Positions 5,043-27,283 of a stretch of 53,372 nt of DNA are shown here, piece after piece (position 1 is the stretch's first letter; each line of letters opens with the position of its first letter). The DNA comes from Deltaproteobacteria bacterium (lineage in GTDB: Bacteria; Desulfobacterota; Desulfobulbia; Desulfobulbales; SURF-16). A program made the translations under genes and the position numbers. Where the stretch lies: positions 1-53,372 of the forward strand of contig JAOZOY010000011.1 in the NCBI GenBank assembly GCA_029933005.1. Direction: 5' to 3'. The notes below the pieces were generated by a model. It had not been told where the DNA came from and ran no database searches. It saw only the letters and a program-made list of their open reading frames with translations.

Positions 5043-5044
5043 TA

Positions 5045-6025
5045 ATGACTAAACCGACAATAAGCGTTGTTATACCAACATATAACCGTTCGGCTATGCT
5101 GCGGGATACCATGGCCTGTATGACTTCTCAGCAGACAAATGATGAATTTACCTATGAAGTACTCATTATTGATGATGCGTCCTCTGATGATACACGGGAA
5201 GCAGCTCAACAAATTATTGACACGGCGCCAATTCAGGTACGATATTTGCGAGAAAAAGGTTGTGGATACACGGCTGTCTTGAACAGAGCGGTTAAAGAAT
5301 TCCATGGACAGTGGCTGGCTTTTTTTGATGATGATCAATTGACCCATTCAACCTGGCTCAAGGAATTGTATACCGTCGGAATAAAGCAACATGCCGAAAT
5401 GATTGGTGGGCCGATCGTATTGGATCTTCCTGATGAAGTCATCGCCAAGCTAGGTCCTGTCTGCCGTGATTTATACGGTGAAAGTCCTGATGTACGTGAA
5501 CCGCAAAAATATGCTGCTCAACCACCGCTGCCTTCTGGTGGTAACCGGCTGGTTAACCGTCGGGTATTTGAAAACATAGGTACATTTGATGAAGCGATGC
5601 TCACCGGTGGCTGCGACCGTGATTTTCTGTTGCGGGCCAAGGCGGTCAATATTACCATGGCCTGGGCTCCACAGGCAATAGGGCGCCATCGTATACCCCC
5701 TGAACGGATCAGCTATAAACATATTAAATGGTACAGTTTACAATGGGGATGTTCATTTGCCTACATTGACTGGAAACGATTTGGAACAGGAAAAACGACC
5801 TTATTCTGTATAACCAGAATAGGGCAGGCATTAGTTGTAAACTTACCAAAACTGTTTTGGGCAAAGATTCGGAACAATAGCATAAAGACCATTGATATTC
5901 AGGCTCTTCTCTGGCGTGCCGTTGGTTATACCAAAAAAACGTTACAAATAATCGCGCCGAAGCTCTTCTCCCAGAAACAATTTTTTTCACAGGTTGAATT
6001 CCGTCGTTCTCGGGAAAACACCTGA
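5045..6025 (+). CDS. Family 2 glycosyltransferase
   Basis: A 326-aa GT-A fold transferase using a nucleotide sugar. ISVVIPTYNRSAML opens the nucleotide-binding fold, LIIDDASSDDT follows, and AFFDDDQLTHSTWL carries the acidic metal-binding triad. LTGGCDRDFLLRAK matches the acceptor/catalytic ED-like region. The start at ATG 5045 is favoured because GGAG at 5032-5035 sits at good spacing; an earlier ATG at 5030 overlaps the upstream gene. No membrane segment is evident, so it should act at the cytoplasmic face on lipid-linked intermediates. A 133-base gap with no clear terminator separates it from the following methyltransferase. Confidence 0.88.
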   Translation: MTKPTISVVIPTYNRSAMLRDTMACMTSQQTNDEFTYEVLIIDDASSDDTREAAQQIIDTAPIQVRYLREKGCGYTAVLNRAVKEFHGQWLAFFDDDQLTHSTWLKELYTVGIKQHAEMIGGPIVLDLPDEVIAKLGPVCRDLYGESPDVREPQKYAAQPPLPSGGNRLVNRRVFENIGTFDEAMLTGGCDRDFLLRAKAVNITMAWAPQAIGRHRIPPERISYKHIKWYSLQWGCSFAYIDWKRFGTGKTTLFCITRIGQALVVNLPKLFWAKIRNNSIKTIDIQALLWRAVGYTKKTLQIIAPKLFSQKQFFSQVEFRRSRENT

Positions 6026-6158
6026 CATGGTTCAGATATCGTAACCGTTCACCGGATCACTAATTTATGGGAACCACAGTCCTTGTAAACGTTTACCAGA
6101 TATCAGCATCGGCACCAACACGTGCCATATCCCCCACCTGGCAGGGGCAAATAGCATT

Positions 6159-7025
6159 ATGAAAAACAATACTATTATCAATAAAACCATGGATCGTGGA
6201 GATCTCAATTCACCTCAAGCTGTAAAAATAATTGGAGAACTCAATGAACTGATCAGCGAATTACGAGCTAAAAGCGTGAAGATCAGTAGTTGGTATGGAA
6301 GTTTTGATCTGGATGACGAACCATTGGAGCCAATTAATCGCGGCTATGGATATACACCACTTGACGATGTTGTGGATGACAGGAATTTTCCCTGGTTTCT
6401 TTATTGGGAAATCATCTGGATTGTACTGCATAATCAATTTGAAGCAGGACAACACCTCCTTGACCTTGGCGGCAGTTCTTCGCTGTTTTCTTACTACATG
6501 GCGTCAAAAGGCTTGCATGTTACCACAGTAGATTTGCAGCAGGATCTGGTAGATAACGCTGACACCAGTGCTGAAATAATGAATTGGAAGCTGCAGAACT
6601 ATGCAATGGATATGAGATACCTGGATTTTGATTTTGAGTTTGACCACATAACATCGGTGTGCGTGTTTGAACATATCCCTATGTTTGCCAGAGTGGAAAT
6701 TAATAGAAAAATAAAAACACTGCTCAAACAAGGAGGGCATTTCAGTATTACTTTTGACTATCGCAATCCAAGCAGACTTGCCCAAATTAATACGGTACAG
6801 GATGTGCACGATCAGTTTGTCGTTCCTTCCGGATTAACAATTCGAGGCAACAATGAATTTTATGATGAACCAGTAAATTATCTATTGGCTCCATTTTTTT
6901 ACCGAAAACCATTATTCAAATACAAATTAAGCTGTATCAGGGACAAACATTTTTTCCTCTGGGAATTTTTTAAAACAAAGGATGAGAACGACTATACTTT
7001 TGGTTCTCTTTTTATGAAAAAATAG
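6159..7025 (+). CDS. SAM-dependent class I methyltransferase
   Basis: A 288-aa protein. Motif I, LLDLGGSSSLFSYY, near residue 100 is the SAM-binding glycine loop; TTVDLQQDLVD follows as the acidic strand-2 end; ITSVCVFEHIP is the motif IV/post-I region. The first ~90 residues and last ~80 residues have no motif I recognise and may shape the acceptor site. Start ATG 6159 is preceded by a GGCAGGGG-type sequence, a weak ribosome site. By location it probably methylates a sugar or a sugar precursor for the polysaccharide built by the neighbours, but no acceptor is indicated. Confidence 0.78.
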   Translation: MKNNTIINKTMDRGDLNSPQAVKIIGELNELISELRAKSVKISSWYGSFDLDDEPLEPINRGYGYTPLDDVVDDRNFPWFLYWEIIWIVLHNQFEAGQHLLDLGGSSSLFSYYMASKGLHVTTVDLQQDLVDNADTSAEIMNWKLQNYAMDMRYLDFDFEFDHITSVCVFEHIPMFARVEINRKIKTLLKQGGHFSITFDYRNPSRLAQINTVQDVHDQFVVPSGLTIRGNNEFYDEPVNYLLAPFFYRKPLFKYKLSCIRDKHFFLWEFFKTKDENDYTFGSLFMKK

Positions 7026-7139
7026 AATTTGTCTGTCTCATACTTGTGCCTTGCGGTTTAGGGTGAAGACTAACGAAGTCCATACCCCTTGCGGGGTAGA
7101 CGTATAGTGCTAAATAAGTTATCGAAGCCATCAAACTTG

Positions 7140-8549
7140 ATGAATAAAGAAGAAAAAATAAAGCATTTTGACGCCATGGCCGGTGAAAGGGCTAATTGGC
7201 GAAAAAAAGGCGCTTATTACCATGCAGAGTTGGAAAAATACCTGCGTTTCCTGGTGCCGGAAGGTGCGTCTGTTCTTGAAATCGGCTGCGGCACCGGGGA
7301 GCTGTTGGCCTCGCTGAAACCAGGTAAAGGCGTTGGTGTGGACATCAGTTCTAAAATGATTGAAAAGGCACAACAGAATTTCCCGGATCTTGACTTCCGG
7401 ATAGATGATTTCGAGGACTTGCAGATAGCTGAAAAATTTGACTTTGTAATTATTGCTGAAACCCTGGGCCATGTTGATGATATCCAGGCGGCGTTCAGAG
7501 AACTGCATAAAGTCAGCACACCGGAAACACGCATCATCATAATTTATTTCAATTACCTATGGGCTCCGGTGATAAAATTCACCGAATCAGCCGGCATACG
7601 CATGAAGCAATCCCTGCAACACTGGCTGCCCCTTGATGATATCGAAAACCTGCTCGACCTGGAAAACTTCCAGGTGGTGAAAAAGGGCTACAGGGTACTT
7701 ATGCCAATAAAAATCCCTCTGTTTGCCTCTTTTTTCAATAAATTTCTCGCCAATATGCCATTTTTCTGGAAAATGGCACTGACCGAAATCCTGGTTGCCC
7801 GGCCCATAGCACAACGAAAACCTCAAGAAGATGTCTCCTGTACAGTCCTTGTTCCCTGCCGAAATGAAAAAGGGAATATAGAACAGGCTGTATTGCGAAC
7901 ACCGGAAATGGGCAGGGCAATGGAGATTATTTATGTTGAAGGTGGTTCGAGTGATGGCACCTATGAAGAATGTCTGCGTGTGCAGAAAAAATATCCGGAT
8001 AAGGATATCACAGTTCTCAGGCAGGAGGGTAAAGGCAAAGGGGACGCGGTTCGCAGGGGTTTTGCAGCAGCAAAGAATGATGTCCTGATGATCCTGGATG
8101 CAGATCTTACTGTACCACCTGAAGACCTGCCAAAATTTTTTAACGCCATTGTCTCCGGCAAAGGTGAGTTTATCAATGGTACCCGACTGGTCTATCAGAT
8201 GGAAAAAGAGGCCATGCGTTTTCTCAATATCATTGGCAATAAATTTTTCAGCCGTGTATTCACCTACCTGTTCGAGCAGAGAATTCGAGACACTTTATGT
8301 GGCACCAAAGTACTTTGGCGGGAAGATTATATAAAAATTCAAAATGGACGAAAATACTTTGGGGAGTTCGATCCTTTTGGTGATTTCGACTTGCTCTTCG
8401 GCGCAGTGAAGCTTAATTTGAAAATTAAGGAAGTCCCTATCCGTTACCGCGATCGGACTTATGGAGAGACCCAGATCAGTCGTTTCCGTCATGGAGTGCT
8501 GCTCCTGAAAATGTCCTGGTTTGGCCTGTTTAAAATTAAATGGATTTGA
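7140..8549 (+). CDS. Methyltransferase-glycosyltransferase (GT2) fusion
   Basis: Two domains in one 469-aa chain, starting at ATG 7140 (the in-frame TTG at 7089 has no good ribosome site). Residues ~1-200 are a class I methyltransferase: VLEIGCGTGELLASL, then GVGVDISSKMI, then VIIAETLGHVDD. Residues ~225-469 are a GT2 domain of the dolichyl-phosphate-mannose-synthase type: CTVLVPCRNEKGNIEQAV, VEGGSSDGT, LILDADLTVPPEDLPKFF-like acidic motif (here MILDADLT), and a C-terminal RDRTYGETQISRF that matches the family's acceptor loop. The upstream 114 bases hold a small perfect hairpin at 7083-7098. The fusion would couple sugar transfer to a polyprenyl phosphate or glycan with methylation, perhaps of the same product. 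The order (methyltransferase first) is uncommon. Confidence 0.85.
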   Translation: MNKEEKIKHFDAMAGERANWRKKGAYYHAELEKYLRFLVPEGASVLEIGCGTGELLASLKPGKGVGVDISSKMIEKAQQNFPDLDFRIDDFEDLQIAEKFDFVIIAETLGHVDDIQAAFRELHKVSTPETRIIIIYFNYLWAPVIKFTESAGIRMKQSLQHWLPLDDIENLLDLENFQVVKKGYRVLMPIKIPLFASFFNKFLANMPFFWKMALTEILVARPIAQRKPQEDVSCTVLVPCRNEKGNIEQAVLRTPEMGRAMEIIYVEGGSSDGTYEECLRVQKKYPDKDITVLRQEGKGKGDAVRRGFAAAKNDVLMILDADLTVPPEDLPKFFNAIVSGKGEFINGTRLVYQMEKEAMRFLNIIGNKFFSRVFTYLFEQRIRDTLCGTKVLWREDYIKIQNGRKYFGEFDPFGDFDLLFGAVKLNLKIKEVPIRYRDRTYGETQISRFRHGVLLLKMSWFGLFKIKWI

Positions 8550-8616
8550 TCGAAAAGAACCTGCATCAAAGTAGGACTGACGTGGGAATAGTAATGCCTT
8601 CAAAGGAGACAAGCCT

Positions 8617-10476
8617 ATGAATTTCATAACAACCGTTGCCTCTGTGACAGGTTACCTGCAACGGTACAAAAGTGGAATCGGCTGCCAAGTTCTGTTTTTA
8701 TTCCTTTTTAGCTTGGTTCCAAGTTTCCTTTCTGCTAAGACCATTTATGTGGATGCCTCCAATGGAGATGACACTAACTCTGGAACACAGGAAAACCGGG
8801 CCTGGAAAACAGTGGATAAAGTCAACAACCAAACTTTGGAGGCCGGCGATACAATATTATTTAAACGCGGAGAGATCTGGCATGAGTCTCTTACTATCAG
8901 CTCCTCCGGTTCGGCTTTCCAGCCTATTACATTCGGTGCATATGGAACAGGAGACATGCCTCTTTTTGATGGGACGTATTCAGATTTTCCAATACCTCTG
9001 CAATGGGAATATGTACAGGAAAATATCTATCGAACCGCCCAACCTGCCTGGAGCAGCACTCCCGGTTTATTAGTGTATAAGGGACTGGCAAAGCCGCCCA
9101 TTACAACTCTGCAATTCAGCTCTCCGATCCCGGCCGCATTGAACAAAGGGGCCATTTTGCTACAGAAGGATAGTCACTATACCAATCTGTGGGTTACCTC
9201 AACCGGTGATAACACGGTTTCAGGGATAACATTTTTTAATATTTACGAAAATGAAAATGTATATGTCCGCCAACTCAATGCTAGCGGCCAGGAAGAAGAT
9301 TGGGACAATACAATTGGTAACCCAACGATCATAACCAGTCAAGAGAGCCTTACAGAACCTGGGCACTGGTATTGGAATGAGCAGGAAGAATCAATTTATT
9401 TATATGCAGAGGCAGCTCCAAATCCTATTGATGTAAAACTTGGAAATTTGATGACCGGCATTGATTCTGACTATCAGGATTTCGTAACCATACAGGACAT
9501 AGATGTGCATGGATTCACCCAAACAGGAGTTCTGATTACAGGAACAGAGGGTGCTGTCGTACGGAATATGCACGTCTCAAATATCGGTGCCAGTGGATAT
9601 CAATGTGGAATTCTCCTGAATAATTCAAAAAATAATCTTGTTCAAAACAATAAAGTGGAGTCTATCCTGCGTATCGGGATAGGTATTTATGCAGCCAACC
9701 CGACGCCTTTTTCCCATGTTTCCCATGGTAATACTGTGAGCGGAAATACGATTATAAACTCCGGGGCAACAGGAATAAGCTTGAATACCGACCACCAGCT
9801 GATCGCAAATAATGTCGAAGATAATCTTATAAGTGGCAATAGGATAATAAACTCAAATGCCCTGTCCTATGATTCGTCAGGAATATACACCCTTTTTGTG
9901 GGGGGAGGGAATGTAATACGCTCCAATACTATCAAAAATGGTGGTAGTACTGAATTGCGCAGTTCCGGTATTATGATTGAAGGTGGTGTGGAATCCGTTA
10001 TCAAGCCTGTGACGATTGAAAATAATATCATTGAATCCAACTCCCTTGCCGGCATTGCTGTATCAGGTGAAGGACATCAGATAACCGGAAACACGCTTCG
10101 TAATAATGGTGTACCATCCTGGGAGAATGCGCAGATAATATTTTTCGCTTCTTTCGGTGAAAATGCTTCAAACTGTACGGTTACCAATAATACCATGGAG
10201 GCAGGGGCAAACCAGACATTGGTTTCCGTGTTAAACGGCTTTGTAACGGAAGGTTCCCCACATACTATTAATAACAACAGGTATTGCAGCATAAACCCTA
10301 GCCCTTTTTGCTGGGGCGCCTGGGAATGTAGCAATCCCCTGGATTTTGATAGCTGGAAAATTCAATCAGGCCATGATGTTTCTTCAACATTCAATGCGGC
10401 TAGCTGCTCGGTATCGGATCCTGCACCGACACCAGGAAAGAGCATCAGTGGTATCTATCTTCTGCTGCTGAAGTAG
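8617..10476 (+). CDS. Secreted right-handed beta-helix protein (first copy)
   Basis: A 619-aa exported protein. The N-terminus has a signal peptide with a hydrophobic core (LFLFLFSLVPSF) ending near SFLSA. The mature part opens with YVDASNGDDTNSGTQ and GDTILFKRGEIWHESL, typical of the DUF1565/pectate-lyase-like entry to a parallel beta-helix. Then come repeated short Asn/Gly-rich rungs such as NLVQNNKVESI, NTVSGNTIINSG and NVIRSNTIKNGG. Proteins of this fold include polysaccharide lyases, epimerases and glycan-binding proteins; no catalytic set can be assigned. It is clearly homologous to the next gene. A ribosome site (AAAGGAGA) precedes the ATG. In the glycan locus it may cut, epimerise or hold the exported polymer. 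Confidence 0.8.
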   Translation: MNFITTVASVTGYLQRYKSGIGCQVLFLFLFSLVPSFLSAKTIYVDASNGDDTNSGTQENRAWKTVDKVNNQTLEAGDTILFKRGEIWHESLTISSSGSAFQPITFGAYGTGDMPLFDGTYSDFPIPLQWEYVQENIYRTAQPAWSSTPGLLVYKGLAKPPITTLQFSSPIPAALNKGAILLQKDSHYTNLWVTSTGDNTVSGITFFNIYENENVYVRQLNASGQEEDWDNTIGNPTIITSQESLTEPGHWYWNEQEESIYLYAEAAPNPIDVKLGNLMTGIDSDYQDFVTIQDIDVHGFTQTGVLITGTEGAVVRNMHVSNIGASGYQCGILLNNSKNNLVQNNKVESILRIGIGIYAANPTPFSHVSHGNTVSGNTIINSGATGISLNTDHQLIANNVEDNLISGNRIINSNALSYDSSGIYTLFVGGGNVIRSNTIKNGGSTELRSSGIMIEGGVESVIKPVTIENNIIESNSLAGIAVSGEGHQITGNTLRNNGVPSWENAQIIFFASFGENASNCTVTNNTMEAGANQTLVSVLNGFVTEGSPHTINNNRYCSINPSPFCWGAWECSNPLDFDSWKIQSGHDVSSTFNAASCSVSDPAPTPGKSISGIYLLLLK

Positions 10477-10658
10477 ACTTGACGAATAGTATAGTTGCAT
10501 AATGAAAGATCGCCTATGCCAGCATATCTGCCAATAAAATCAGAATAGGGGTCAGGCCTTTATCCCCCTATGGCTATTTTCGCGCTCCCGGGAAGGGCGT
10601 AAACATATGTTCGTCGATGATTTACCATCTGATTTGATAGCAAAAGACTTGAGCCTGA

Positions 10659-12329
10659 ATGAAAAGAATAATTATTACTATCTACTGGATACTGCTTTTT
10701 TGTTTACTTTATCTGTTCCCACACTACGCCTTTTCCACTGAGTACTATCTGGATTCAGCAAATACCTTTTCCGGCGATGGAACCCTTGCCAATCCCTGGC
10801 AGAAAATCAGCAGCATCAATAGTATCAGTTCGGGAGATGCCATTCTTTTCAAACGTGGTGGCATCTGGCATGAATCACTGCTTATCCCGTCATCCGGTAT
10901 AATTGTCGGATCATACGGGACAGGTACGCAGCCGATTCTTGATGCAAGCCTCCCTGTTACGGGACAATGGACGAAAAAAAACTCAGATGTATATTCAACA
11001 CCATGGCCTGCTCAGCCAGGTGTTTTATTGTATAAGGGAGCAGCCAAACCATCAATTACAACCTTAGGCTTTGCTTCTGTTCCTTCTTCTCTTGAATCCG
11101 GTGCAATCCTCCTGCAATTAGACGGTATCTATTCCAATCTATGGGTAACATCCAAAACAGCAAACACGGTATCAGGAATATCTCTGTTTAACATACATGA
11201 GGATAAAAAAATATATGTCCGCCAGATGAAAGGAGGCTGTGAAAAACAATGGTCCACCTCTCTTGGCTCCCCCAAGGTGGTTAACAGCCCAAAGGGTTTA
11301 ACTCAGCCCGGGCACTGGTATTGGGCAGATGGTACTTTGTATCTTTATTCAGATATCGATCCTTCATCTATCGCTGTAGCAGTTGGGGACAAGCCATACG
11401 GAATCCTGGCGTCTGGCAGGAACAATCTGATCATTGAAAACCTGACTGTTCGTGGGGCTAATGAAGTCGGGGTATTTCTTCTGAACACCGGCGAAACAAT
11501 AGTTCGCAATCTTTGTATCCGGAGTAGCGGGAGTTCAGGACATAAAAGTGGTCTGCTGCTGTTTAACTCCAGCAATAACAGTATTATTCAAAACAGCATC
11601 GACTCCGTACTGAAAAATGGAATCGCACTCTATGCCGAGGGTGGTTTGACTCGTAACAATACCCTTTCCGGCAACAGTGTCAGCAATGTCGGGGCAGCCG
11701 GGATCACTCTCAGTTCCGATGGGAACGCCAAAAGTGTTTCCAGCAATATTATTGAGAAAAATTCAATAAGCGGTGCAAATGCACTTTCTTATGATGGGGC
11801 CGGCATTTATACACTCTTTGCCGGCAGTAATATGATGCGGGGAAATACGATCCGCAACTGTGGCTCAATCAGACTCCGCAGTGCAGGCATAATGGCTGAT
11901 GGCGGAACACTGCCATTGACAATCGAATCGAATAATATCGAAAATAATTCCATGGGCGGCATAGCCGTCAGTGACTCCGGTCATCAAATCATCAATAACA
12001 GGCTGATGAACAACGGTGCCCCTTCATGGGACAGTGGACAGCTTATTTTTTTCCCGGTCTTTGCTCCAGCTAAAAACTGCACAGTTACAGGAAACAGTAT
12101 GACTGCAGGACTCAAGCAATCACTGTTATTTGGAGCATCAGGAAGTACCAGTGGCCATATTATTGATCACAATGCATACTCAAGTGCTGAAAGAGTCCCT
12201 TTTGTCTGGTCCGGTGCATCAATGAATTTTGCAGACTGGAAACGAAAAACAGAACACGATTCGCATTCGACATACACTGTAACTGTTCAGGAGCATCCCA
12301 TCTTGTCCCATTTGGACATTTTCGAATAG
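10659..12329 (+). CDS. Secreted right-handed beta-helix protein (second copy)
   Basis: A 556-aa paralogue of the upstream gene. The signal peptide is short and strongly hydrophobic (IYWILLFCLLYLF) and cleavage is likely after HYAFS. The shared landmarks come in the same order as in the first copy: GDAILFKRGGIWHESL, TPWPAQPGVLLYKG, YVRQMKG, QPGHWYW, and rungs such as NNTLSGNSVSNVG and NMMRGNTIRNCG. It lacks about 40-60 residues relative to copy one, spread over loops and the C-terminus. The 182-base gap before it holds a stretch resembling a decayed transposase leader (see findings). The start ATG 10659 has only a weak GAG upstream. Function is as uncertain as for copy one; divergence suggests separate substrates rather than a recent duplication. 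Confidence 0.78.
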   Translation: MKRIIITIYWILLFCLLYLFPHYAFSTEYYLDSANTFSGDGTLANPWQKISSINSISSGDAILFKRGGIWHESLLIPSSGIIVGSYGTGTQPILDASLPVTGQWTKKNSDVYSTPWPAQPGVLLYKGAAKPSITTLGFASVPSSLESGAILLQLDGIYSNLWVTSKTANTVSGISLFNIHEDKKIYVRQMKGGCEKQWSTSLGSPKVVNSPKGLTQPGHWYWADGTLYLYSDIDPSSIAVAVGDKPYGILASGRNNLIIENLTVRGANEVGVFLLNTGETIVRNLCIRSSGSSGHKSGLLLFNSSNNSIIQNSIDSVLKNGIALYAEGGLTRNNTLSGNSVSNVGAAGITLSSDGNAKSVSSNIIEKNSISGANALSYDGAGIYTLFAGSNMMRGNTIRNCGSIRLRSAGIMADGGTLPLTIESNNIENNSMGGIAVSDSGHQIINNRLMNNGAPSWDSGQLIFFPVFAPAKNCTVTGNSMTAGLKQSLLFGASGSTSGHIIDHNAYSSAERVPFVWSGASMNFADWKRKTEHDSHSTYTVTVQEHPILSHLDIFE

Positions 12330-12350
12330 CACAAGTATGGCTTCAAAGGC

Positions 12351-12407
12351 CCAGGTAAGTGAGGAACGAGACTCCGAATGAACCAGGTAAGCGCAGACTC
12401 CGATATG
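12351..12407 (+). repeat. Short imperfect tandem direct repeat
   Basis: Two adjacent copies of CCAGGTAAG followed by AGACTCCGA (12351-12380 and 12383-12407). The second copy lacks about five bases between the two blocks. It lies between the second beta-helix gene and the IS21-like repeat, so it may belong to a decayed mobile-element end. Confidence 0.5.
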
Positions 12408-12416
12408 GAGTACTCC

Positions 12417-12471
12417 TGAACAGTTACAGAATGGTGGTTAGGTCAATTTGGTGACCCACCTGAACAGTTCC
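12417..12471 (+). repeat. IS21-end-like repeat, copy 1
   Basis: About 55 bases that align with 25910-25966 with only around seven differences. The unit begins and ends with the same direct motif, TGAACAGTT, and has the conserved core GGTGGTTAGG...CAATTTGGTG. Multiple short direct repeats at an end are a feature of IS21-family elements, but no istA or istB gene is present here. I infer a remnant element end. Confidence 0.6.
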
Positions 12472-12546
12472 CATACACCAAAAAAATTGACTCCCCCCGA
12501 GATTCCAACGCGTCTGAAAAACAGTCTTTCAGGTAAGAGTTCATTC

Positions 12547-13785
12547 ATGAAAAAACAGAATCCTTTGCAAGTCATCTCATTATTTTTCGACCGACATAAA
12601 AATGCAGTTATTCACCTTACCGCACTTTTTTTTCTAGTCGCAGGATTAGGATACTCGTTTTATCTCGGCAACGAGATACGTTTTCCAGATGAAAAACAGT
12701 ACTTCAAAATTGCACAGAATCTTGCCGCGGGGAATGGCTTTTCCATTAACGGCATAGATCCCACCGCTATTTTTCCACCGGTGTATCCGCTCATCCTGGC
12801 CCTGTTTATTAAACTTGGTACACCGATATTTATGCTGCGTTATATCAATTTTATTGCTCTTGCCTCATCTGTATACATCATCCGGTCGATCCTGAACAAG
12901 GAAAAAGCACAATCCGGGGCAGCCCTGTCAGCGGCACTTCTGGCCGGTTACGGCGTTCTTTTTTATACTGCTGGAACCCTCTATACCCAAACCCTTTACA
13001 CTCTGATTCTGCTTTGTATTGTCCGCCTGGTAATCGTGCGGAATTTCGACTATCCAAAGGCCATTCTTCTTGGTTTGTTATCAGCGCTGATTATCATGAT
13101 TCATCCCACCGGTGTTTTTATTCCGCCACTGGTTGTGGTCTGGCTTTTTTTCCCACGCAATTACCATATCATTCTAAAAGGAACTGTTGCAGCTCTCATT
13201 GCCGTAACCTGTATCTCCATCTGGAGTTATCGTAATTACAAAACTTTTGATCGTTTCATCCCCATCACCTCCCACGGTGGAGACACACTCTATATCGGCA
13301 ACAACCCCGATACCTCGCTCTCATCCTGGTACAATTACATCTATGAAGATTACTATATTGAAGCCAGCAAGCTGCCGGAGAGCGAACAGAATCGCTATTA
13401 CCTTCGTAAAACCATGGAATTCTGGAGCAACCATACTGGTGACGCAGTGAAACTATACTTTGTCAAACTCTTGGATTATTTCAATTTTCGCAACCATCTT
13501 TTTGCCACAAGCGAATTCAGCAGAGTGTGTGAAATAATTATGTTTGTTACCTACTACCCACTCCTTATCTGTCTCGTCCTGCGCTTATTTTTTGCCGTCA
13601 AAATTCCCTTATCACGCACGGAATCCCTGTTTGTCAGTATATATCTTGTCAGTGCCCTGTTTCATTCTCTGTTTCTGCCGCGTATCCGATTTCGGCTTCC
13701 CTACGACGTGGTGTTGATTACCCACATCGGAATTATGTTGTCGCTGGCAAAGCATCGTTTAACAAGTACCACCACCAGACCTTAA
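12547..13785 (+). CDS. GT39/ArnT-like membrane glycosyltransferase
   Basis: The start is taken as ATG 12547 (MKKQNPLQ), with AGGTAAGAG just upstream. A longer frame from TTG 12448 would read through the IS21-like repeat and is unlikely. The protein is 412 aa with about ten membrane segments. The first periplasmic loop carries the acidic pair FPDEKQYFKIAQNLA followed by GNGFSING and PPVYPLILALFIK, the pattern of polyprenyl-phosphate-sugar-dependent GT-C transferases (PMT/ArnT class). These move a sugar from a lipid carrier to a protein or glycan on the outer face of the membrane. A donor could come from the DPM-like GT2 domain at 7140-8549. The acceptor is unknown. Confidence 0.75.
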   Translation: MKKQNPLQVISLFFDRHKNAVIHLTALFFLVAGLGYSFYLGNEIRFPDEKQYFKIAQNLAAGNGFSINGIDPTAIFPPVYPLILALFIKLGTPIFMLRYINFIALASSVYIIRSILNKEKAQSGAALSAALLAGYGVLFYTAGTLYTQTLYTLILLCIVRLVIVRNFDYPKAILLGLLSALIIMIHPTGVFIPPLVVVWLFFPRNYHIILKGTVAALIAVTCISIWSYRNYKTFDRFIPITSHGGDTLYIGNNPDTSLSSWYNYIYEDYYIEASKLPESEQNRYYLRKTMEFWSNHTGDAVKLYFVKLLDYFNFRNHLFATSEFSRVCEIIMFVTYYPLLICLVLRLFFAVKIPLSRTESLFVSIYLVSALFHSLFLPRIRFRLPYDVVLITHIGIMLSLAKHRLTSTTTRP

Positions 13786-20764: not shown

Positions 20765-22078
20765 ATGTTGAATGATTTTATCTCGGAGGAAAAAGTTGAA
20801 CTGAAAATCGACGGCAAGGTGTATCAACTGCCGATCATTGTCGGAACAGAAGGCGAAAAGGCTATCGACATCCGGAAATTACGGGCTGAAACCGGTTATA
20901 TCACGATCGACTCAGGCTACATGAACACGGGTTCCTGCACCAGTGACATTACATTCCTGGACGGCGAAAAGGGGATCTTGAACTACCGGGGATATGCTAT
21001 TGAGGATTTGGCTGAAAATTGCACCTTCGTCGAGGTTGCCTATCTTCTTGATCATGGGAGTCTGCCTACGCAAAAACAATTGGATGATTTGGCCCATCTG
21101 CTGACCGGGTTCAGCATGATTCACGAGGACATGATTCATTTTTTTGATCATTTTACTCCAAACGCGCCACCCATGTCTATTTTGTCATCCATGGTGAATT
21201 CTCTCTGTAATTTTTATCCGGAAATGACGGAGAATCCCCTGGAGAATTTTGATTTGATGTCAGCTCGGCTGATCTCGAAGATTCGAACCATTGCCGCTTT
21301 TTCTTACAGGAAATCCATGGGGCAGCCTCTGGTCTATCCCCGGCATGATTATTCCTATTGTACGAATTTTCTGCATATGATGTTTGATTCGCCGGTAAAT
21401 CCCTATGAGGTCAATCATGATATCGTTATGGCCCTGAACAAGCTTTTAATTCTTCATGCCGACCATGAACAGAATTGTTCCACCTCCACTGTCAGGCTTG
21501 TGGGCAGCTCCAGGGTGAATCTCTACACCTCCATCTCAGCCGGTATCAGCGCCTTGGGGGGACCGCTTCATGGCGGCGCCAACCAGGCGGTCATCGAAAT
21601 GCTTGAGGAGATTCATGAGAACGGTGGTAATTTCAGGAAATATGTCGGGCGTGCCAAAGACCCTAATGATCCTTTCCGTCTTTCCGGTTTCGGTCATCGG
21701 GTATATAAGAGTTTTGATCCCAGGGCCCGGGTCATCAAGGGTGCCTGTGATCAGGTTCTTGAGAGCATCGGCATGGCAGGGGATCCCTTGCTTGACATCG
21801 CCAAAAATCTTGAAGAGTTTGCCCTTCAGGATGAGTATTTTATTGAGCGGAATTTGTATCCCAACGTTGACTTTTACAGCGGCATTATCTACCGCGCCAT
21901 CGGCATTCCAAGCAACATGTTCACTGTCATGTTTGCCTTGGGTCGTCTGCCGGGCTGGATAGCCCAATGGAAGGAAATGTGGGATGACCCGGACGTACGT
22001 ATAGGCCGGCCGCGCCAGATTTATACCGGGCCGACAAAAAGAGAGTTTGTCCCTATTCAGGACAGGATTGAAGAGTAA
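20765..22078 (+). CDS. gltA: Citrate synthase, type II
   Basis: Condenses acetyl-CoA and oxaloacetate to citrate, the entry to the TCA cycle. At 437 aa it matches the bacterial hexameric (GltA) type, including the N-terminal beta domain (VELKIDGKVYQLPIIVG). The catalytic set is intact: LHADHEQN (~229), GGPLHGGANQ (~265, His of the active site) and NVDFYSG (~366, Asp). FGHRVYKSFDPRA supplies substrate-binding Arg residues. Start ATG 20765 has a poor AAGG upstream. It is monocistronic by appearance: a long leader precedes it, and a palindromic element follows 27 bases after the stop. In a sulfate reducer it may run oxidatively or supply glutamate. Confidence 0.96.
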   Translation: MLNDFISEEKVELKIDGKVYQLPIIVGTEGEKAIDIRKLRAETGYITIDSGYMNTGSCTSDITFLDGEKGILNYRGYAIEDLAENCTFVEVAYLLDHGSLPTQKQLDDLAHLLTGFSMIHEDMIHFFDHFTPNAPPMSILSSMVNSLCNFYPEMTENPLENFDLMSARLISKIRTIAAFSYRKSMGQPLVYPRHDYSYCTNFLHMMFDSPVNPYEVNHDIVMALNKLLILHADHEQNCSTSTVRLVGSSRVNLYTSISAGISALGGPLHGGANQAVIEMLEEIHENGGNFRKYVGRAKDPNDPFRLSGFGHRVYKSFDPRARVIKGACDQVLESIGMAGDPLLDIAKNLEEFALQDEYFIERNLYPNVDFYSGIIYRAIGIPSNMFTVMFALGRLPGWIAQWKEMWDDPDVRIGRPRQIYTGPTKREFVPIQDRIEE

Positions 22079-22236: not shown

Positions 22237-22627
22237 AAGTTTTTCCTTGTAGTTACAACTTGGCGCTTGCCCATGATTGGTTAGGGCTGAGTCTTGTCTG
22301 GAATGAGTTTCAGGCCTTGTACAGCCTCTCAAGGCACCGTAATACCTTGCTTCAAGGTCATTTTTAACTCATTTTGGATATTACAGGAACTAATCTTGCC
22401 TTGACTCAGTTAGACTATCCCTGTATATTCCTTATATTGCTTTTTGTAATTGAACTCCTTTTTGTCGGCGATTTTTGCCCCCCCCCTGCTGTTTTTTTAT
22501 CCCATCCAGCTTGTTTGTTTGAGACAATCGGCAGAAAATAAACATTCCCGCTCAGCCGCATCCTATGGTCTTCACCGGCCTGGTCTTTCTGCTTTTTGTT
22601 TGTTTATAAATACGGAGAAAATGGAAT
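22237..22627. other. Gene-free leader of the lipid head-group cassette
   Basis: AT-rich, with a run of nine C near 22480. Nothing else is recognisable. The open frames seen here (22140-22367, 22450-22635) lie across the palindrome or end in the next gene and look fortuitous. GGAG at 22614-22617 is the ribosome site for the next gene. Confidence 0.5.
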
Positions 22628-23560
22628 ATGAATAATCTGTTTAACCATCCAGCCTTTGGACAAGAGCAAGTACGTACGGCCCTGCTTTTGGCTGCAGGTA
22701 CTGGCAGTCGCTTAGCTCCGCTGACCGATAAAATGCCAAAATGTCTTGTTTCAGTCAATGAAATAGCTATTCTTGAAAGATTGGTTTTCGCCCTACGTTC
22801 ACACAATTTTAAGCGACTGGTTATAGTTGTCGGACATCAAGCTGACTGTATCCGTAATTTTCTCGGAACCCGGGCCGGGGGAATGAAAATCACCTATATA
22901 ACCAGTCCACTCTATAAAACAACCAATAATATTTATTCTTTGTGGCTTGCCAGAAAGGTAATAGATGAACCATTTCTGTTGATTGAGAGTGATCTTGTTT
23001 TTGATCCGGGAATGCTTAAAGGTATGCTCCATCCTGATCGAATCGCAATTTCCAGATTGCAGCCCTGGATGAATGGCACCACGGTGACTATCAACAGCCA
23101 CCAGAAGATTAAGGCCTTTCAGGGCAGCGCTCATAAATCTGATGATAACCATTACAAGACCGTCAATATTTACAGCCTTTCCACCACAACCTGGCGACTG
23201 GTCCGGGAAAGATTAGACCGATATATTTCAAATAATATGGTCAATGGCTACTATGAGACGGTTTTTGCGGATATGGTCATTGATGGCTGTCTTTCTTTTA
23301 CGCCGGTTTTCTTTGATTCCAGCCGTTGGTATGAGATTGACACTATTGCGGATCTGCGAGCAGCTGCACAGGTATGTGGTCTCCATCACCATTTATCTTT
23401 CATTGTAACTGGTCACGCGGTAAGCAGCCATCTGGTCCAAGGCTATCCCCGAGTCTATAGACGATTACAGGGCATTAATCGAAGCAAAAGAGGCTTCCGT
23501 CGTTACCCAGACAGAGAGGTGTCTGCGCCAATGATGTCAGCTTCGCCCTTACCACAGTAA
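22628..23560 (+). CDS. LicC-like sugar/phospho-alcohol nucleotidyltransferase
   Basis: A 310-aa protein of the NTP-transferase fold. VRTALLLAAGTGSRLAPLTD and KMPKCLV give the nucleotide-binding G-x-G-x-R-L-x-P-L-T...P-K-C-L signature, residues ~16-40. YITSPLYKTTNNIYSLWLA followed by LIESDLVFDPGML resembles the choline-phosphate cytidylyltransferase (LicC) and phosphonate cytidylyltransferase branch; sugar-phosphate branches differ here. WYEIDTIADL is the typical end of the core. The last ~60 residues (from ~250) have no recognisable match. The likely product is a CDP-activated small phospho-alcohol. It precedes the PLP enzyme by 30 bases, and the two look like partners split from a fused form known elsewhere. 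Confidence 0.75.
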   Translation: MNNLFNHPAFGQEQVRTALLLAAGTGSRLAPLTDKMPKCLVSVNEIAILERLVFALRSHNFKRLVIVVGHQADCIRNFLGTRAGGMKITYITSPLYKTTNNIYSLWLARKVIDEPFLLIESDLVFDPGMLKGMLHPDRIAISRLQPWMNGTTVTINSHQKIKAFQGSAHKSDDNHYKTVNIYSLSTTTWRLVRERLDRYISNNMVNGYYETVFADMVIDGCLSFTPVFFDSSRWYEIDTIADLRAAAQVCGLHHHLSFIVTGHAVSSHLVQGYPRVYRRLQGINRSKRGFRRYPDREVSAPMMSASPLPQ

Positions 23561-23590
23561 TTTATTAAATTTACCGAGAAATCACAAACA

Positions 23591-24682
23591 ATGTCTTCCG
23601 CTCAAGAGCGCTACGATTTTATTTCCAGCCAGCATGGCGGCTATTGGCGTCATGATTTTATTGATCATAACTATCTCTATAACCTCTATTTCCCGCCGGA
23701 GGAGTTTTTTACTCATCTTACCAGGCAAATCCATCAGTTGGTGTTAAACTATCCCATTGCCCAGAAAGACCTGGCAGGTCTGGTGGGTGATCTGATCTGT
23801 CAGCCGCCGGAGCGCCTTGTCGTAGGCAATGGGGCGGCAGAGCTCATCAAAATTATCGCCGGGATGAACCGCAAATTGATTGTGCCGGTACCGTCGTTCA
23901 ATGAATACGCCAACGCAGCGCTTCCTGAAAATGTAGTTGAGTTTGCCCTTGAATCACCGTCCTTTCAGTTGGATGTCGACAGATTCGCAGCAGCGGCCAT
24001 CCATTGTAAGGCAGGTTTGGCAGTGGTAGTCTCTCCTAATAACCCCACCTCATTGCTGGTCCCCAAAGTTGAGCTTATCCGGTTGCTGAAGAAATTAGCA
24101 GATCTCGACTGTATGCTCATCGTTGATGAATCTTTCAATGATTTTGCCAAGAACAGCGATCAGGAGACTCTGGCAACAGAGCTTGATAACTACCCAAATC
24201 TGGCTATTTTCAAAAGCATGAGCAAGGCCTATGGCATCTGCGGCATTCGGATTGGTTACATGCTCACCGCCAACCATGACTTTGCGGCAAAGGTCCGGCA
24301 AGGGCTCCATATTTGGAATATAAATGGTTTCGCGGAAGAATTCCTGCGTCTTGCCCCGCAGTACCATCAAGAGTTTATTGATAGCTGTAATAAGGTCAAG
24401 GCAGATCGTGATCTTTTTTATAAACAACTCCAGGTGATCCAGGGAATGACCGTCTACCAGCCTGACGCCAATTATATTTTCTGCCGTCTGCCCGACCATG
24501 CTGCATCCGGTCCGGAAGTGACCGAAAAACTGTTTGTTAAGCACAATATTTATATTAAACACTGCCAGGGCAAGACAATGCCGGAATCTGACCGTTATCT
24601 CCGTATAGCCAGCCGCACCCAGGCGGAAAACCGGAGATTGGTTGAAGCGTTGCGCGACGTTATTGGTCCAGAGAGCAAGTAA
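23591..24682 (+). CDS. PLP-dependent aminotransferase/decarboxylase (CobD/HisC-like)
   Basis: A 363-aa fold-type I PLP enzyme. Landmarks: YLYNLYFPPEEF at the N-terminus, GNGAAELIKIIAG (PLP phosphate), VVSPNNPTS, LIVDESFNDF (Asp to the PLP ring) and SMSKAYGICGIRIGY, in which the Lys near residue 212 forms the internal aldimine. YLRIASRTQAEN near the C-terminus carries the substrate-carboxylate Arg. This set fits the histidinol-phosphate aminotransferase / threonine-phosphate decarboxylase (CobD) group. By context it may make a phospho-amino-alcohol, such as ethanolamine phosphate from serine phosphate, or aminate one. Its stop overlaps the next start by one base (TAATG), so the two are translationally coupled. 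Confidence 0.75.
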   Translation: MSSAQERYDFISSQHGGYWRHDFIDHNYLYNLYFPPEEFFTHLTRQIHQLVLNYPIAQKDLAGLVGDLICQPPERLVVGNGAAELIKIIAGMNRKLIVPVPSFNEYANAALPENVVEFALESPSFQLDVDRFAAAAIHCKAGLAVVVSPNNPTSLLVPKVELIRLLKKLADLDCMLIVDESFNDFAKNSDQETLATELDNYPNLAIFKSMSKAYGICGIRIGYMLTANHDFAAKVRQGLHIWNINGFAEEFLRLAPQYHQEFIDSCNKVKADRDLFYKQLQVIQGMTVYQPDANYIFCRLPDHAASGPEVTEKLFVKHNIYIKHCQGKTMPESDRYLRIASRTQAENRRLVEALRDVIGPESK

Positions 24683-25329
24683 TGGCAGCCCCGCATTCAT
24701 CAGATTCGCCCCTTTCCATACTTTCTTTTGCCAAAGACTTGCCGAACATCTGTTCTCTGGCCGGGCTGCTGTGCGCAGTTATTGCTATTTATTATGCGAT
24801 TCTGGGCATCTTCCCAGCCGTGATGATCGGTCTGATCTGGGCAGTACTCTTTGACTGGACGGATGGTATTATTGCCCGGCGCCTGAAAGGGCGCAGCGAT
24901 GAACAGCGGGAGTTCGGAGGACAGCTTGATTCTCTGATCGACATTGTCAGCTTCGGCATTTGCCCGGCTATTGTCCTGTTAAGCTACGGACATTTCAGTC
25001 CCTGGTTCCTACCCGGAGCCTTTATTATTGTCGCGACCGGAGTGCTTCGGCTCAGCTATTTCAATGTTTTTGGCCTGGTTGACGAGTCGACCTATATGGG
25101 ACTGGCGCTGGACAACAATATCATCATTTTGACAGCTGTCTTTCCGTTTGCCGGTCTGGTTGGCCAAAGTGTTTTCACCGTGGTTCTTTATATCCTGCTT
25201 ATGGTCCTTACCGCTTTTAATGTGGCTCCTGTTAAGACCCCCAAGTTTGCTGGTCGGTGGTATTACGCTCTCATACTTTATACCATGGTCATAACTGTGA
25301 TATATGGCCGGCAATTAGTGCAGATGTAA
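24682..25329 (+). CDS. CDP-alcohol phosphatidyltransferase with longer motif
   Basis: A 215-aa membrane enzyme with about six helices. The signature starts at FDWTDGIIARRLKG and continues to FGGQLDSLIDIVSFG: Asp58, Asp61, Gly62, Ala65 and Arg66, then Gly79, Asp83 and Asp87. The family usually has 8 residues between Arg and Gly; here there are 12. DSLIDIVSFGICPA is the ending typical of phosphatidylserine-synthase-like members. It would transfer a phospho-alcohol between a CMP-linked donor and an alcohol acceptor. With the two upstream genes this suggests synthesis of a phospholipid or glycolipid head group. All acidic residues are intact, so activity is expected. Confidence 0.8.
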   Translation: MAAPHSSDSPLSILSFAKDLPNICSLAGLLCAVIAIYYAILGIFPAVMIGLIWAVLFDWTDGIIARRLKGRSDEQREFGGQLDSLIDIVSFGICPAIVLLSYGHFSPWFLPGAFIIVATGVLRLSYFNVFGLVDESTYMGLALDNNIIILTAVFPFAGLVGQSVFTVVLYILLMVLTAFNVAPVKTPKFAGRWYYALILYTMVITVIYGRQLVQM

Positions 25330-25636
25330 CCAATTTCAGGGTGATTTTACCCCGTGATTTGTTACGTTTGAACGGTTATGCATGGACATCCCGAGGGCAC
25401 TCGGAGTCGGAGTTTATACCCCCACTGTTTTCAAGGGTGCTTACCTCCTGTGGGGCGCTGTAGATCCACAAAAGGTTCATTGAACCGTTTTTGGAAATTT
25501 TTGTCCGTTGTCGCCTGCCTGTTCTAACTCCGTTTCTTTTAATTTTAAATTCCCATATTTTACTTATCTTGCCCGTCTCCCTGGTGCGGATTGAGTTATA
25601 ATCTCGCATCATTACGTTTATAATTCTTTTGTTTAT

Positions 25637-25699
25637 ATGAAAGTCTCTCACAGAGGCACAGAGTTTTTCTCTGCGTCTCTGCGAGAGATTAACTTTCAT
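25637..25699. repeat. Near-perfect short palindrome
   Basis: ATGAAAGT and CTCTCACAGAGGCACAGAG (25637-25663) face CTCTGCGTCTCTGCGAGAG and ACTTTCAT (25669-25699). The core stem matches at 16 of 19 positions, with the three differences being transitions. CTCTG-rich palindromes of this kind are dispersed in many genomes, as far as I recall. No T-run follows on the plus strand, so it is not a clear terminator. Confidence 0.55.
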
Positions 25700-25909
25700 T
25701 TCTCGATGTCTTATTTCATTCGCTTATCGGTTGTGCCGGTTCGTCGGGATGGCCGTTACTTTTAAAATAGATGCCGGGTTCAGTTCCCCGGTTGCATTTG
25801 CTGAATAGTTACGGATTGACTATCATTTCTCTGTGTGGTACAAAAAAATGTTTTAGATGCTGTCAGATCAGGACAGTATGGAGTTTTTTCAAGGATTTTT
25901 AGCCCTTGG

Positions 25910-25966
25910 TGAATAGTTACGGAACGGTGGTTAGGCCAATTTGGTGGCCCCACCTGAAAAGTTACG
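25910..25966 (+). repeat. IS21-end-like repeat, copy 2
   Basis: Nearly the same sequence as 12417-12471, same orientation, with TGAATAGTTAC and TGAAAAGTTAC at its two ends. Its last bases, together with the following GT, form the GGAG that serves as ribosome site for the aminotransferase ATG at 25979. Confidence 0.6.
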
Positions 25967-25978
25967 GAGTTAAAAGCA

Positions 25979-27283
25979 ATGCGTACAAATATCGTCCATA
26001 TTGGCGCCGGCGAATTGACCTATGAGATTCGCAATATTGTCAATGTCGGACAGCAGTTAGAGAAATTGGGGGTTGAGACCCATTGGGAAAATATAGGGGA
26101 CCCGGTGGCCAAGGGTGAAACGATTCCCGAGTGGATGAAAGAGGTTGTCGCCGGCCTGGCCATGAAGGATTCGTCTTATGCCTATTGTCCCACCAAGGGC
26201 ATGCTTGCGACTCGTGAATTTATTGCCGACCAAGTCAACAGCCGGGGAAAGGTTCAGATCACCGCCGAAGATATTATTTTTTTTAACGGTCTGGGGGATG
26301 CCATCAGCAAGGTTTTCGGCATGTTGAAACGGACGGCCAGGGTTGTTGTGCCCTCGCCGAGCTATACCACCCATTCCTCGGCCGAGGCAAGCCATGCCGG
26401 AGATCGGCCGGTGACGTACCGTCTTGATCCCCATAACCACTGGTATCCGGATCTTGATGATCTGGAGAGACGGGTCAAGTATAATCCTGCGGTTGCGGGC
26501 ATTCTGATCATTAATCCGGACAATCCCACCGGAGCGGTGTACCCGGAGGCGATTTTACAGGGAATGGTTGATCTTGCCCGCAAGTATGATCTTTTTGTTA
26601 TTTGCGATGAGGTCTATCATAATATCATCTATAATGGTAAAAAAACCGTGGCGGTCTCGGACATTATCGGTAATGTGCCGGCAATCATCATGCGCGGCAT
26701 TTCCAAGGAGATGCCCTGGCCCGGATCGCGCTGCGGCTGGCTGGAGGTGTATAATGGTCATAACGATCCTGTTTTTGAAAAATATATCGCCTCGATATTA
26801 AACGCCAAGATGCTTGAGGTCTGCTCAACCACCCTGCCGCAAATGGCAATGCCGAAATTGGTCAGTCATGCGGAATATGACGGATATCTGGCCGAGCGGG
26901 TGGCCCGTTATGAGCGATATTCCAATATTGCCTATGACAGTCTGAAAGAGGTGGAGGGAATCCAGGTAAACCGGACCAACGGCGCTTTTTACATGAGTGC
27001 GGTTTTTGCGGAAGGGGTGATGAATCGGCAGCAGACCCTGCCCATTGAGAAAGAGGAGGTACGTACGCTTGTAGAAAAGCTGGTCAGCAGTGATACTGTT
27101 TCGCTGGACAAGCGGTTTGTCTATTATCTGTTAGGAGCCACCGGCATCTGCGTGGTACCGCTTTCTTCGTTTGCCACCGAACTGCAGGGGTTCCGGATCA
27201 CTCTTCTTGAAAGGGATGAGACGGCGTTCAGGATGATTTTTGATACAATTGCCGAAAATATCCGTACTTATCTGGATTCGTGA
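25979..27283 (+). CDS. Class I/II aminotransferase (alanine/aspartate type)
   Basis: A 434-aa PLP enzyme. Landmarks in order: NIGDPVAKGETIPEW, FNGLGDAISKVFGML, VVPSPSYTTHSS, IINPDNPTGAVYP (Asn binding PLP), VICDEVYHNIIY (Asp and Tyr) and RGISKEMPWPGSRCGW, with the aldimine Lys near residue 243 and Arg binding PLP phosphate. FRITLLERDE supplies the substrate carboxylate Arg. The family transfers amino groups between amino acids and 2-oxo acids; an alanine- or aspartate-linked reaction is likely, but the exact substrate is not set by sequence. The ATG follows directly after the IS21-like repeat, whose end supplies GGAG. A large inverted repeat follows the stop. Confidence 0.85.
   Translation: MRTNIVHIGAGELTYEIRNIVNVGQQLEKLGVETHWENIGDPVAKGETIPEWMKEVVAGLAMKDSSYAYCPTKGMLATREFIADQVNSRGKVQITAEDIIFFNGLGDAISKVFGMLKRTARVVVPSPSYTTHSSAEASHAGDRPVTYRLDPHNHWYPDLDDLERRVKYNPAVAGILIINPDNPTGAVYPEAILQGMVDLARKYDLFVICDEVYHNIIYNGKKTVAVSDIIGNVPAIIMRGISKEMPWPGSRCGWLEVYNGHNDPVFEKYIASILNAKMLEVCSTTLPQMAMPKLVSHAEYDGYLAERVARYERYSNIAYDSLKEVEGIQVNRTNGAFYMSAVFAEGVMNRQQTLPIEKEEVRTLVEKLVSSDTVSLDKRFVYYLLGATGICVVPLSSFATELQGFRITLLERDETAFRMIFDTIAENIRTYLDS

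Follow-up and report, generated by a model that had tools for sequence, protein, structure and literature searches.

A conserved three-gene cassette and its predicted phosphoserine-fed, Kennedy-like route to CDP-ethanolamine

What might three small adjacent genes, encoding a LicC-like nucleotidyltransferase, a pyridoxal phosphate (PLP)-dependent enzyme and a CDP-alcohol transferase, make together? The question is raised by a contig of a Deltaproteobacteria bacterium (Desulfobacterota; Desulfobulbales; SURF-16; assembly GCA_029933005.1, contig JAOZOY010000011.1), positions 1 to 53,372 of which form the 53,372-nucleotide stretch analysed here, hereafter the window. We lean, without great confidence, towards reading this cassette as a self-contained route from phosphoserine through phosphoethanolamine and CDP-ethanolamine to an acceptor, probably a glycerolipid, that receives phosphoethanolamine. 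The PLP enzyme would decarboxylate O-phospho-L-serine to phosphoethanolamine, the LicC-like enzyme would combine this product with CTP to yield CDP-ethanolamine, and the transferase, judged mainly by its linkage to the other two, would pass the phosphoethanolamine of CDP-ethanolamine to the acceptor with release of CMP. The acceptor group would most likely be the hydroxyl of a diradyl-glycerol or of another membrane lipid. Such a Kennedy-like route is the best-supported interpretation of the locus; it is built on gene order, conservation, family placement, active-site signatures and the lack of a general phosphonate linkage, from which the enzymatic steps and the product are predicted. In the open-access literature, no account of a prokaryotic phosphoserine decarboxylase/CDP-ethanolamine route was found, and a phosphoserine-fed route appears to be undescribed.

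Conservation of the three-gene unit

The first part of the question is whether the three genes belong together. With the PLP protein as query, some 85,000 species genomes were scanned; at least 79 loci were listed, to which all locus counts refer, and gene order was counted only where the contig left room upstream or downstream. The LicC-like gene precedes the PLP gene in all 74 loci with upstream room, and the CDP-alcohol transferase (CDP-OH) gene follows it in 72 of the 73 with downstream room (71 by open reading frame, or ORF, and one, L078, by tblastn). The order and strand of the three genes are constant across relatives, with a median gap of −1 base between the PLP and CDP-OH genes; in the window, the TAA of the former and the ATG of the latter have one base in common. 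This linkage is far above chance, and the three genes constitute a single conserved unit. The preliminary description of the window had placed three genes in a row, the last two overlapping by one base, and had proposed a check of their neighbourhood in relatives; the ORFs and family calls were upheld, and the linkage proved to be kept. By Pfam and NCBIfam, the cassette comprises a nucleotidyltransferase (NTP_transferase/NTP_transf_3), a class I/II PLP enzyme and a CDP-OH_P_transf protein, none of which attains a curated equivalog cut-off in NCBIfam.

Identity of the PLP protein among the listed loci ranges from 62 to 93% (best segment), and the flanking genes are mostly unrelated between loci. 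By record label, the bacterial carriers belong to the Desulfobacterota, Gammaproteobacteria, Bacteroidota, Kiritimatiellota, Chloroflexota, Actinomycetota, KSB1 and Acidobacteriota. The archaeal carriers are eight records labelled Methanosarcinales, Methanothrix or other Euryarchaeota, labels that can be wrong for contigs of metagenome-assembled genomes (MAGs), and two archaeal PLP sequences pair in the tree with 99/96 support. In the window's own phylum the cassette is rare, with 3 carriers among the 297 genomes sampled. It has the pattern of an accessory unit passed between lineages as a block.

A few loci show variations on this arrangement. The sole downstream exception is L042, where LicD and a CDP-OH gene of another kind stand in for the transferase; the locus (3961-8427) comprises, in order, the LicC-like gene, the PLP gene, LicD, that other CDP-OH gene and a histidine-phosphatase-like gene. 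At L045, with less than 0.8 kb of downstream sequence, a class III aminotransferase comes next. A Methanosarcina-labelled contig of 182 kb (L050) carries two whole cassettes in tandem at 7001-13323, the PLP copies of which score identically. Finally, a small inverted fragment 3′ of the cassette at L013 (5644-5715) corresponds to the C-terminal end of the CDP-OH gene and is possibly an assembly artefact.

Fourth genes were counted on the same strand within 3.5 kb 3′ of the cassette. An ATP-grasp protein, weakly similar to the amino-acid ligases LdmS and BesA, occurs in 28 loci (L011, at 5811-7148, and 27 others); it represents an uncharacterised family, and the member scanned has no Pfam match. 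A methyltransferase dependent on S-adenosylmethionine follows the cassette in nine loci, a metallophosphoesterase in seven and a LicD-family match in five, with intact genes in four of the latter (L025, L042, L072 and L081) and no intact ORF in L048. The ATP-grasp, methyltransferase and LicD genes are mutually exclusive among loci. Both LicD proteins scanned find their best match in Mf1, a transferase that accepts CDP-ethanolamine and CDP-choline (PMC11982090), and the fourth genes therefore fit a CDP-ethanolamine-type intermediate, with the product tailored differently by organism. The window's own copy of the cassette has no such partner adjoining it; the aminotransferase gene downstream was considered as a fourth member and rejected, given its strong NF005334 match and lack of recurrence beside the cassette.

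Placement and active sites of the three enzymes

The closest matches of the LicC-like enzyme in the Protein Data Bank (PDB) are LicC (1jyk) and PntC-AEPT (6pd1), and its AlphaFold2 (AF2) model lies nearest to 6pd2/1jyk. A conserved core spans approximately residues 13-250, and the tail (254-310) is variable and modelled with low confidence. In PntC, Glu104 and Glu196 contact the primary amine, and the choline-specific LicC has Asp105 and Asp192 in their place (PMC6697681). E120 and E210 of the cassette enzyme align with the glutamates of PntC and are kept in at least 97% of 74 sequences. Because this pair is that of PntC and not the aspartate pair of LicC, the substrate is predicted to be a small primary amine; the comparison with LicC and PntC called for in the preliminary description has in this way brought a primary-amine signature to light.

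The second protein had been described as CobD/HisC-like, and it can now be placed on the CobD/serine-phosphate-decarboxylase side. Its best NCBIfam match is TIGR01140 (CobD), at 172.1 bits against a cut-off of 290.55, and TIGR01141 (HisC) gives 140.8 bits, likewise below its cut-off (276.55). The best PDB match is 6oux (E 8.9e-38), which we take to be SMUL_1544 of Sulfurospirillum multivorans, a serine-phosphate decarboxylase, followed by a Clostridium protein and Salmonella CobD. To judge from the title of a reference (Keller et al. 2016) listed in PMC8749415, SMUL_1544 governs norcobamide synthesis. In a maximum-likelihood tree, the cassette PLP sequences form a single clade on the CobD side, with SMUL_1544 as its sister (100/98), a join that persists after four long-branch rows are dropped (100/99). 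Approximately unbiased (AU) tests rejected both a constraint uniting the cassette with HisC (p-AU 0.009) and one uniting SMUL_1544 with CobD without the cassette (p-AU 0.005). K212 is the predicted Schiff-base lysine, and an H15-G16-G17 motif near the N terminus, kept in at least 97% of 79 sequences, is shared by seven of the eight CobD sequences checked but by none of the HisC sequences checked. Together, the profile scores, the HGG motif and the AU test rule out a HisC identity.

Nor is the PLP enzyme part of the B12 pathway, a role ruled out by gene context and by a separate CobD. The window genome encodes a CobD-like protein of its own (271 bits, also under the TIGR01140 cut-off) at another site, next to a CobU-like gene, as well as a separate HisC, and the cassette enzyme is therefore a third function besides these two. 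No linkage of the cassette PLP gene to cobalamin genes was found among the listed loci, where its neighbours are the LicC-like and CDP-OH genes, and a strong match to CobD is missing from many cassette genomes. The most likely substrate, as far as family placement can predict it, is phosphoserine, with phosphothreonine the nearest alternative.

The transferase carries the motif D58xxD61GxxA65R66(x12)G79xxxD83xxxD87, in which the metal-binding aspartates are kept. Profile searches for related structures returned only the phosphatidylserine (PS) synthases 7b1k/7pow, and CEPT was not among the 50 structural matches listed for its model. The enzyme is of the PS-synthase type and not of the CEPT type, so that its use of a CDP-amino-alcohol as donor, which linkage suggests, and its lipid acceptor are no more than predictions. 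Within this fold, DIPP synthase provides a precedent for a small CDP-alcohol donor. The preliminary description had proposed a Kennedy-like route, and its first half has fared well, with one conserved unit, a CobD-side PLP enzyme and a primary-amine LicC; transfer to a lipid is a prediction, the third enzyme being PS-synthase-like rather than CEPT-like. Elsewhere in this genome, a 401-aa protein (L090:946-2151; G000:C46 around 35471) combines a C-terminal CDP-OH domain with an extra N-terminal region and is followed by a diacylglycerol-kinase-like gene; it is a further CDP-alcohol enzyme with no assigned function.

The cassette and its surroundings in the window are given in Table 1. The pattern search that yielded the candidate promoter returned 8 sites against 5.5 expected from shuffles, which is near chance level. 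The AT-skewed stretch 3′ of the cassette contains no recognised gene, and an Rfam search of the window found no RNA family.

Table 1. Features of the window in and around the cassette
Feature	Position	Strand	Length	Family or remark
Citrate synthase	20765-22078			Upstream neighbour, ~550 bases from the cassette
Candidate sigma-70-like promoter, TTGACT-17-TATATT	22401-22429	+		Weak, 5′ of the cassette
LicC/PntC-like CTP:phospho-amino-alcohol cytidylyltransferase, predicted CTP:phosphoethanolamine cytidylyltransferase	22628-23560	+	310 aa	PF00483/PF12804
PLP-dependent fold-type I enzyme, predicted O-phospho-L-amino-acid (most likely phosphoserine) decarboxylase	23591-24682	+	363 aa	Aminotran_1_2
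CDP-alcohol phosphotransferase, divergent PS-synthase-type, predicted phosphoethanolamine transfer from CDP-ethanolamine	24682-25329	+	215 aa	PF01066
AT-skewed stretch	25376-25980			Short inverted repeats at 25474-25486, 25682-25705 and 25857-25879
Aminotransferase	25979-27283			Downstream neighbour, 650 bases off; NF005334, 744 bits

The proposed pathway and its alternatives

Several observations weigh against a phosphoserine-fed route that ends in a lipid. Genome-wide surveys for phosphoenolpyruvate (PEP) mutase and PS decarboxylase (Psd) took in 51 cassette genomes, and Psd is present in 45 of them, where a second route to phosphatidylethanolamine (PE) would be redundant. The closest family of the third enzyme is that of PS synthase, the donor of which is CDP-diacylglycerol (CDP-DAG). 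Its AF2 model (pLDDT 86.5) best matches the PS synthase MjPSS (7b1k/7pow), and by alignment it keeps as D83, S84, D87 and F127 the residues that contact serine, namely D62, S63, D66 and F105, in MjPSS (PMC8633023). Moreover, because SMUL_1544 entered the tree as a partial sequence (residues 72-389 only) on a long branch, its exact sister relation to the cassette enzymes appears less sure than their exclusion from HisC.

Lipid profiles are a further point on this side. Desulfosediminicola flagellatus (L049) carries the cassette, and its sister species D. ganghwensis probably does not. Thin-layer chromatography revealed PE and phosphatidylglycerol in both species; D. flagellatus also gave a single unidentified aminolipid, and D. 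ganghwensis gave two aminolipids together with an unidentified aminophospholipid (PMC8497536). Since the probably cassette-free D. ganghwensis shows more amino- and phospholipid spots, no abundant novel aminophospholipid is evident with the cassette in D. flagellatus. The cassette product may be PE itself, or it may be minor, conditional or not a simple lipid.

Because 45 of the 51 genomes keep Psd, the cassette seldom takes over from the usual way of making PE, and a role as a stand-in for a missing PS decarboxylase is ruled out. The six genomes without a recognised Psd, which include L065 (Chloroflexota-labelled) and L071 (Actinomycetota-labelled) and are MAGs that are possibly incomplete, may depend on the cassette for PE.

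A wider form of the proposal is conceivable, although we hold it only tentatively and consider it rather doubtful as a whole. The cassette would then be a de novo CDP-ethanolamine pathway from phosphoserine, spread horizontally through bacteria and methanogenic/methane-oxidising archaea, in which a PS-synthase-fold enzyme works with reversed donor polarity (a CDP-amino-alcohol as donor and a lipid as acceptor). The interchangeable fourth genes (amino-acid ligase-like ATP-grasp, methyltransferase and LicD) would tailor the product, generating new modified aminophospholipids or surface decorations.

It is unlikely, to our reading, that the PLP enzyme acts on phosphothreonine or another phospho-amino acid, leading to CDP-1-amino-2-propanol or a similar compound and to a new aminophospholipid in place of PE. 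The position of the PLP family on the CobD side of the tree would suit this idea, as would the redundancy of a second PE route in genomes that already have Psd. However, the closest characterised relative is SMUL_1544 and not Salmonella CobD, and the many cassette genomes without a strong CobD match may not make phosphothreonine for B12. Phosphoserine, by contrast, is a standard intermediate of serine synthesis.

Similarly improbable is an acceptor other than a glycerolipid for the CDP-ethanolamine, such as a glycolipid, a surface glycan (following LicD-like logic) or a small soluble molecule as in the DIPP synthase branch. The LicD-family genes after the cassette in L025, L072 and L081 speak for it, together with the LicD and different CDP-OH gene that take the transferase's place in L042; the acceptor-site residues are those of serine-binding PS synthase and not of CEPT, and AfIPCT-DIPPS (4mnd) turns up as a structural match to the LicC model and to the CDP-OH model alike. 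LicD is nevertheless confined to few loci, the CDP-OH gene is nearly always there, and 4mnd matches the CDP-OH model with an E of 0.12 as compared to about 1e-6 for PS synthase.

We give still less credence to the third enzyme being an ordinary extra PS synthase (CDP-DAG plus serine), which would reduce the pathway to the first two genes. The PS synthase fold and the conserved serine-contacting residues speak for this idea, yet the protein scores 71.7 bits with TIGR00473 (pssA), below the cut-off of 107, and the window genome has both Psd and a canonical PssA of its own (L087) that scores 123. The spacing AR(x12)G differs from the AR(x8)G of PS synthase, the loop being four residues longer with the fixed residues all kept, and RLSYF and GLALDNN replace RLARF and GLPxP. 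The near-invariant linkage with a cytidylyltransferase argues in the same direction, and a transferase fed with CDP-ethanolamine is preferred here.

The last alternative, a phosphonate product, had been raised in the preliminary description and does not stand as a general role. PEP mutase (TIGR02320) is above its cut-off in just 1 of the 51 cassette genomes, that of the window, where the PEP mutase-phosphonopyruvate decarboxylase pair (PepM-Ppd) is found on a different contig, next to an alcohol dehydrogenase of the iron type; a general phosphonate role is largely ruled out by this survey. Phosphonate supply is absent at the family cut-off in the other 50 genomes, which favours an amino alcohol O-phosphate, in the simplest case the phosphoethanolamine of the PLP step, over 2-aminoethylphosphonate (AEP); the latter could conceivably be a substrate of the LicC-like enzyme only where phosphonates are made. 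That the PLP enzyme converts phosphonoacetaldehyde to AEP, and the LicC-like enzyme converts AEP to CMP-AEP as PntC-AEPT does, is very improbable: the window genome encodes PEP mutase and phosphonopyruvate decarboxylase and the LicC-like enzyme bears the PntC glutamate pair, but beyond the survey result the company of the dehydrogenase suggests hydroxyethylphosphonate, and AEP transaminase belongs to class V, unlike the PLP enzyme, which falls on the CobD side of the HisC/CobD family. At L093 (G000:C28:1-7000), genes for a PEP mutase that carries a cytidylyltransferase-like region at its N terminus, for phosphonopyruvate decarboxylase and for an alcohol dehydrogenase of the iron type lie in a row, near a CDP-glycerol glycerophosphotransferase-like gene; they make up a phosphonate pathway separate from the cassette, which probably leads to 2-hydroxyethylphosphonate.

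Significance and comparison with known systems

Bacterial PE is usually taken to come through PS, and bacterial CDP-choline and CDP-ethanolamine chemistry is mostly known from scavenged choline. If the proposal is true, the cassette would provide another way to the ethanolamine head group, without free ethanolamine, and would place a phospho-amino-acid decarboxylase outside B12 synthesis. It could also help to account for amino lipids not yet identified in sulfate reducers of sediments and in the archaea that live beside them. The three proteins are small and directly assayable, and the donor polarity of the PS-synthase-type enzyme poses a clear question for CDP-alcohol transferase enzymology.

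Each of the three genes resembles a component of some known system. The first gene finds its closest sequence match in LicC of the Lic phosphocholine pathway of Streptococcus pneumoniae, although Asp105 and Asp192 of LicC are glutamates in the cassette family and LicD-type genes occur in few loci. PntC and PntC-AEPT of Pnt phosphonate tailoring have in common with it the cytidylyltransferase fold, the amine-facing glutamate pair and an adjacent PLP enzyme (PMC6697681), whereas the cassette lacks a PEP mutase partner and its PLP enzyme is CobD-side and not a class V transaminase. For the second gene, SMUL_1544 is the closest solved relative and its sister in the tree; SMUL_1544 serves norcobamide synthesis, and the cassette enzyme is distantly similar and has no B12 gene linkage. 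The third gene has its best structural match in PssA/MjPSS (7b1k), with metal-binding aspartates and serine-contacting residues in common, but has 12 rather than 8 residues from AR to G and replacements of RLARF and GLPxP.

The pairing of a cytidylyltransferase and a CDP-OH enzyme whose donor is a small CDP-alcohol has a precedent in IPCT-DIPPS (CTP:inositol-1-phosphate cytidylyltransferase with CDP-inositol transferase), which differs from the cassette in acting on inositol instead of an amino alcohol, in being fused and in having no PLP enzyme. Finally, the eukaryotic Kennedy CDP-ethanolamine pathway follows the same logic, from phosphoethanolamine to CDP-ethanolamine and on to transfer with release of CMP. 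Within the cassette, to which the kinase search was limited, a CobD-side PLP enzyme stands instead of ethanolamine kinase. The two later enzymes belong to families other than those of their eukaryotic counterparts, with a LicC-type cytidylyltransferase (PF00483/PF12804) and a transferase of the PS-synthase type rather than the CEPT type, and phosphoethanolamine is predicted to arise from phosphoserine rather than from free ethanolamine.

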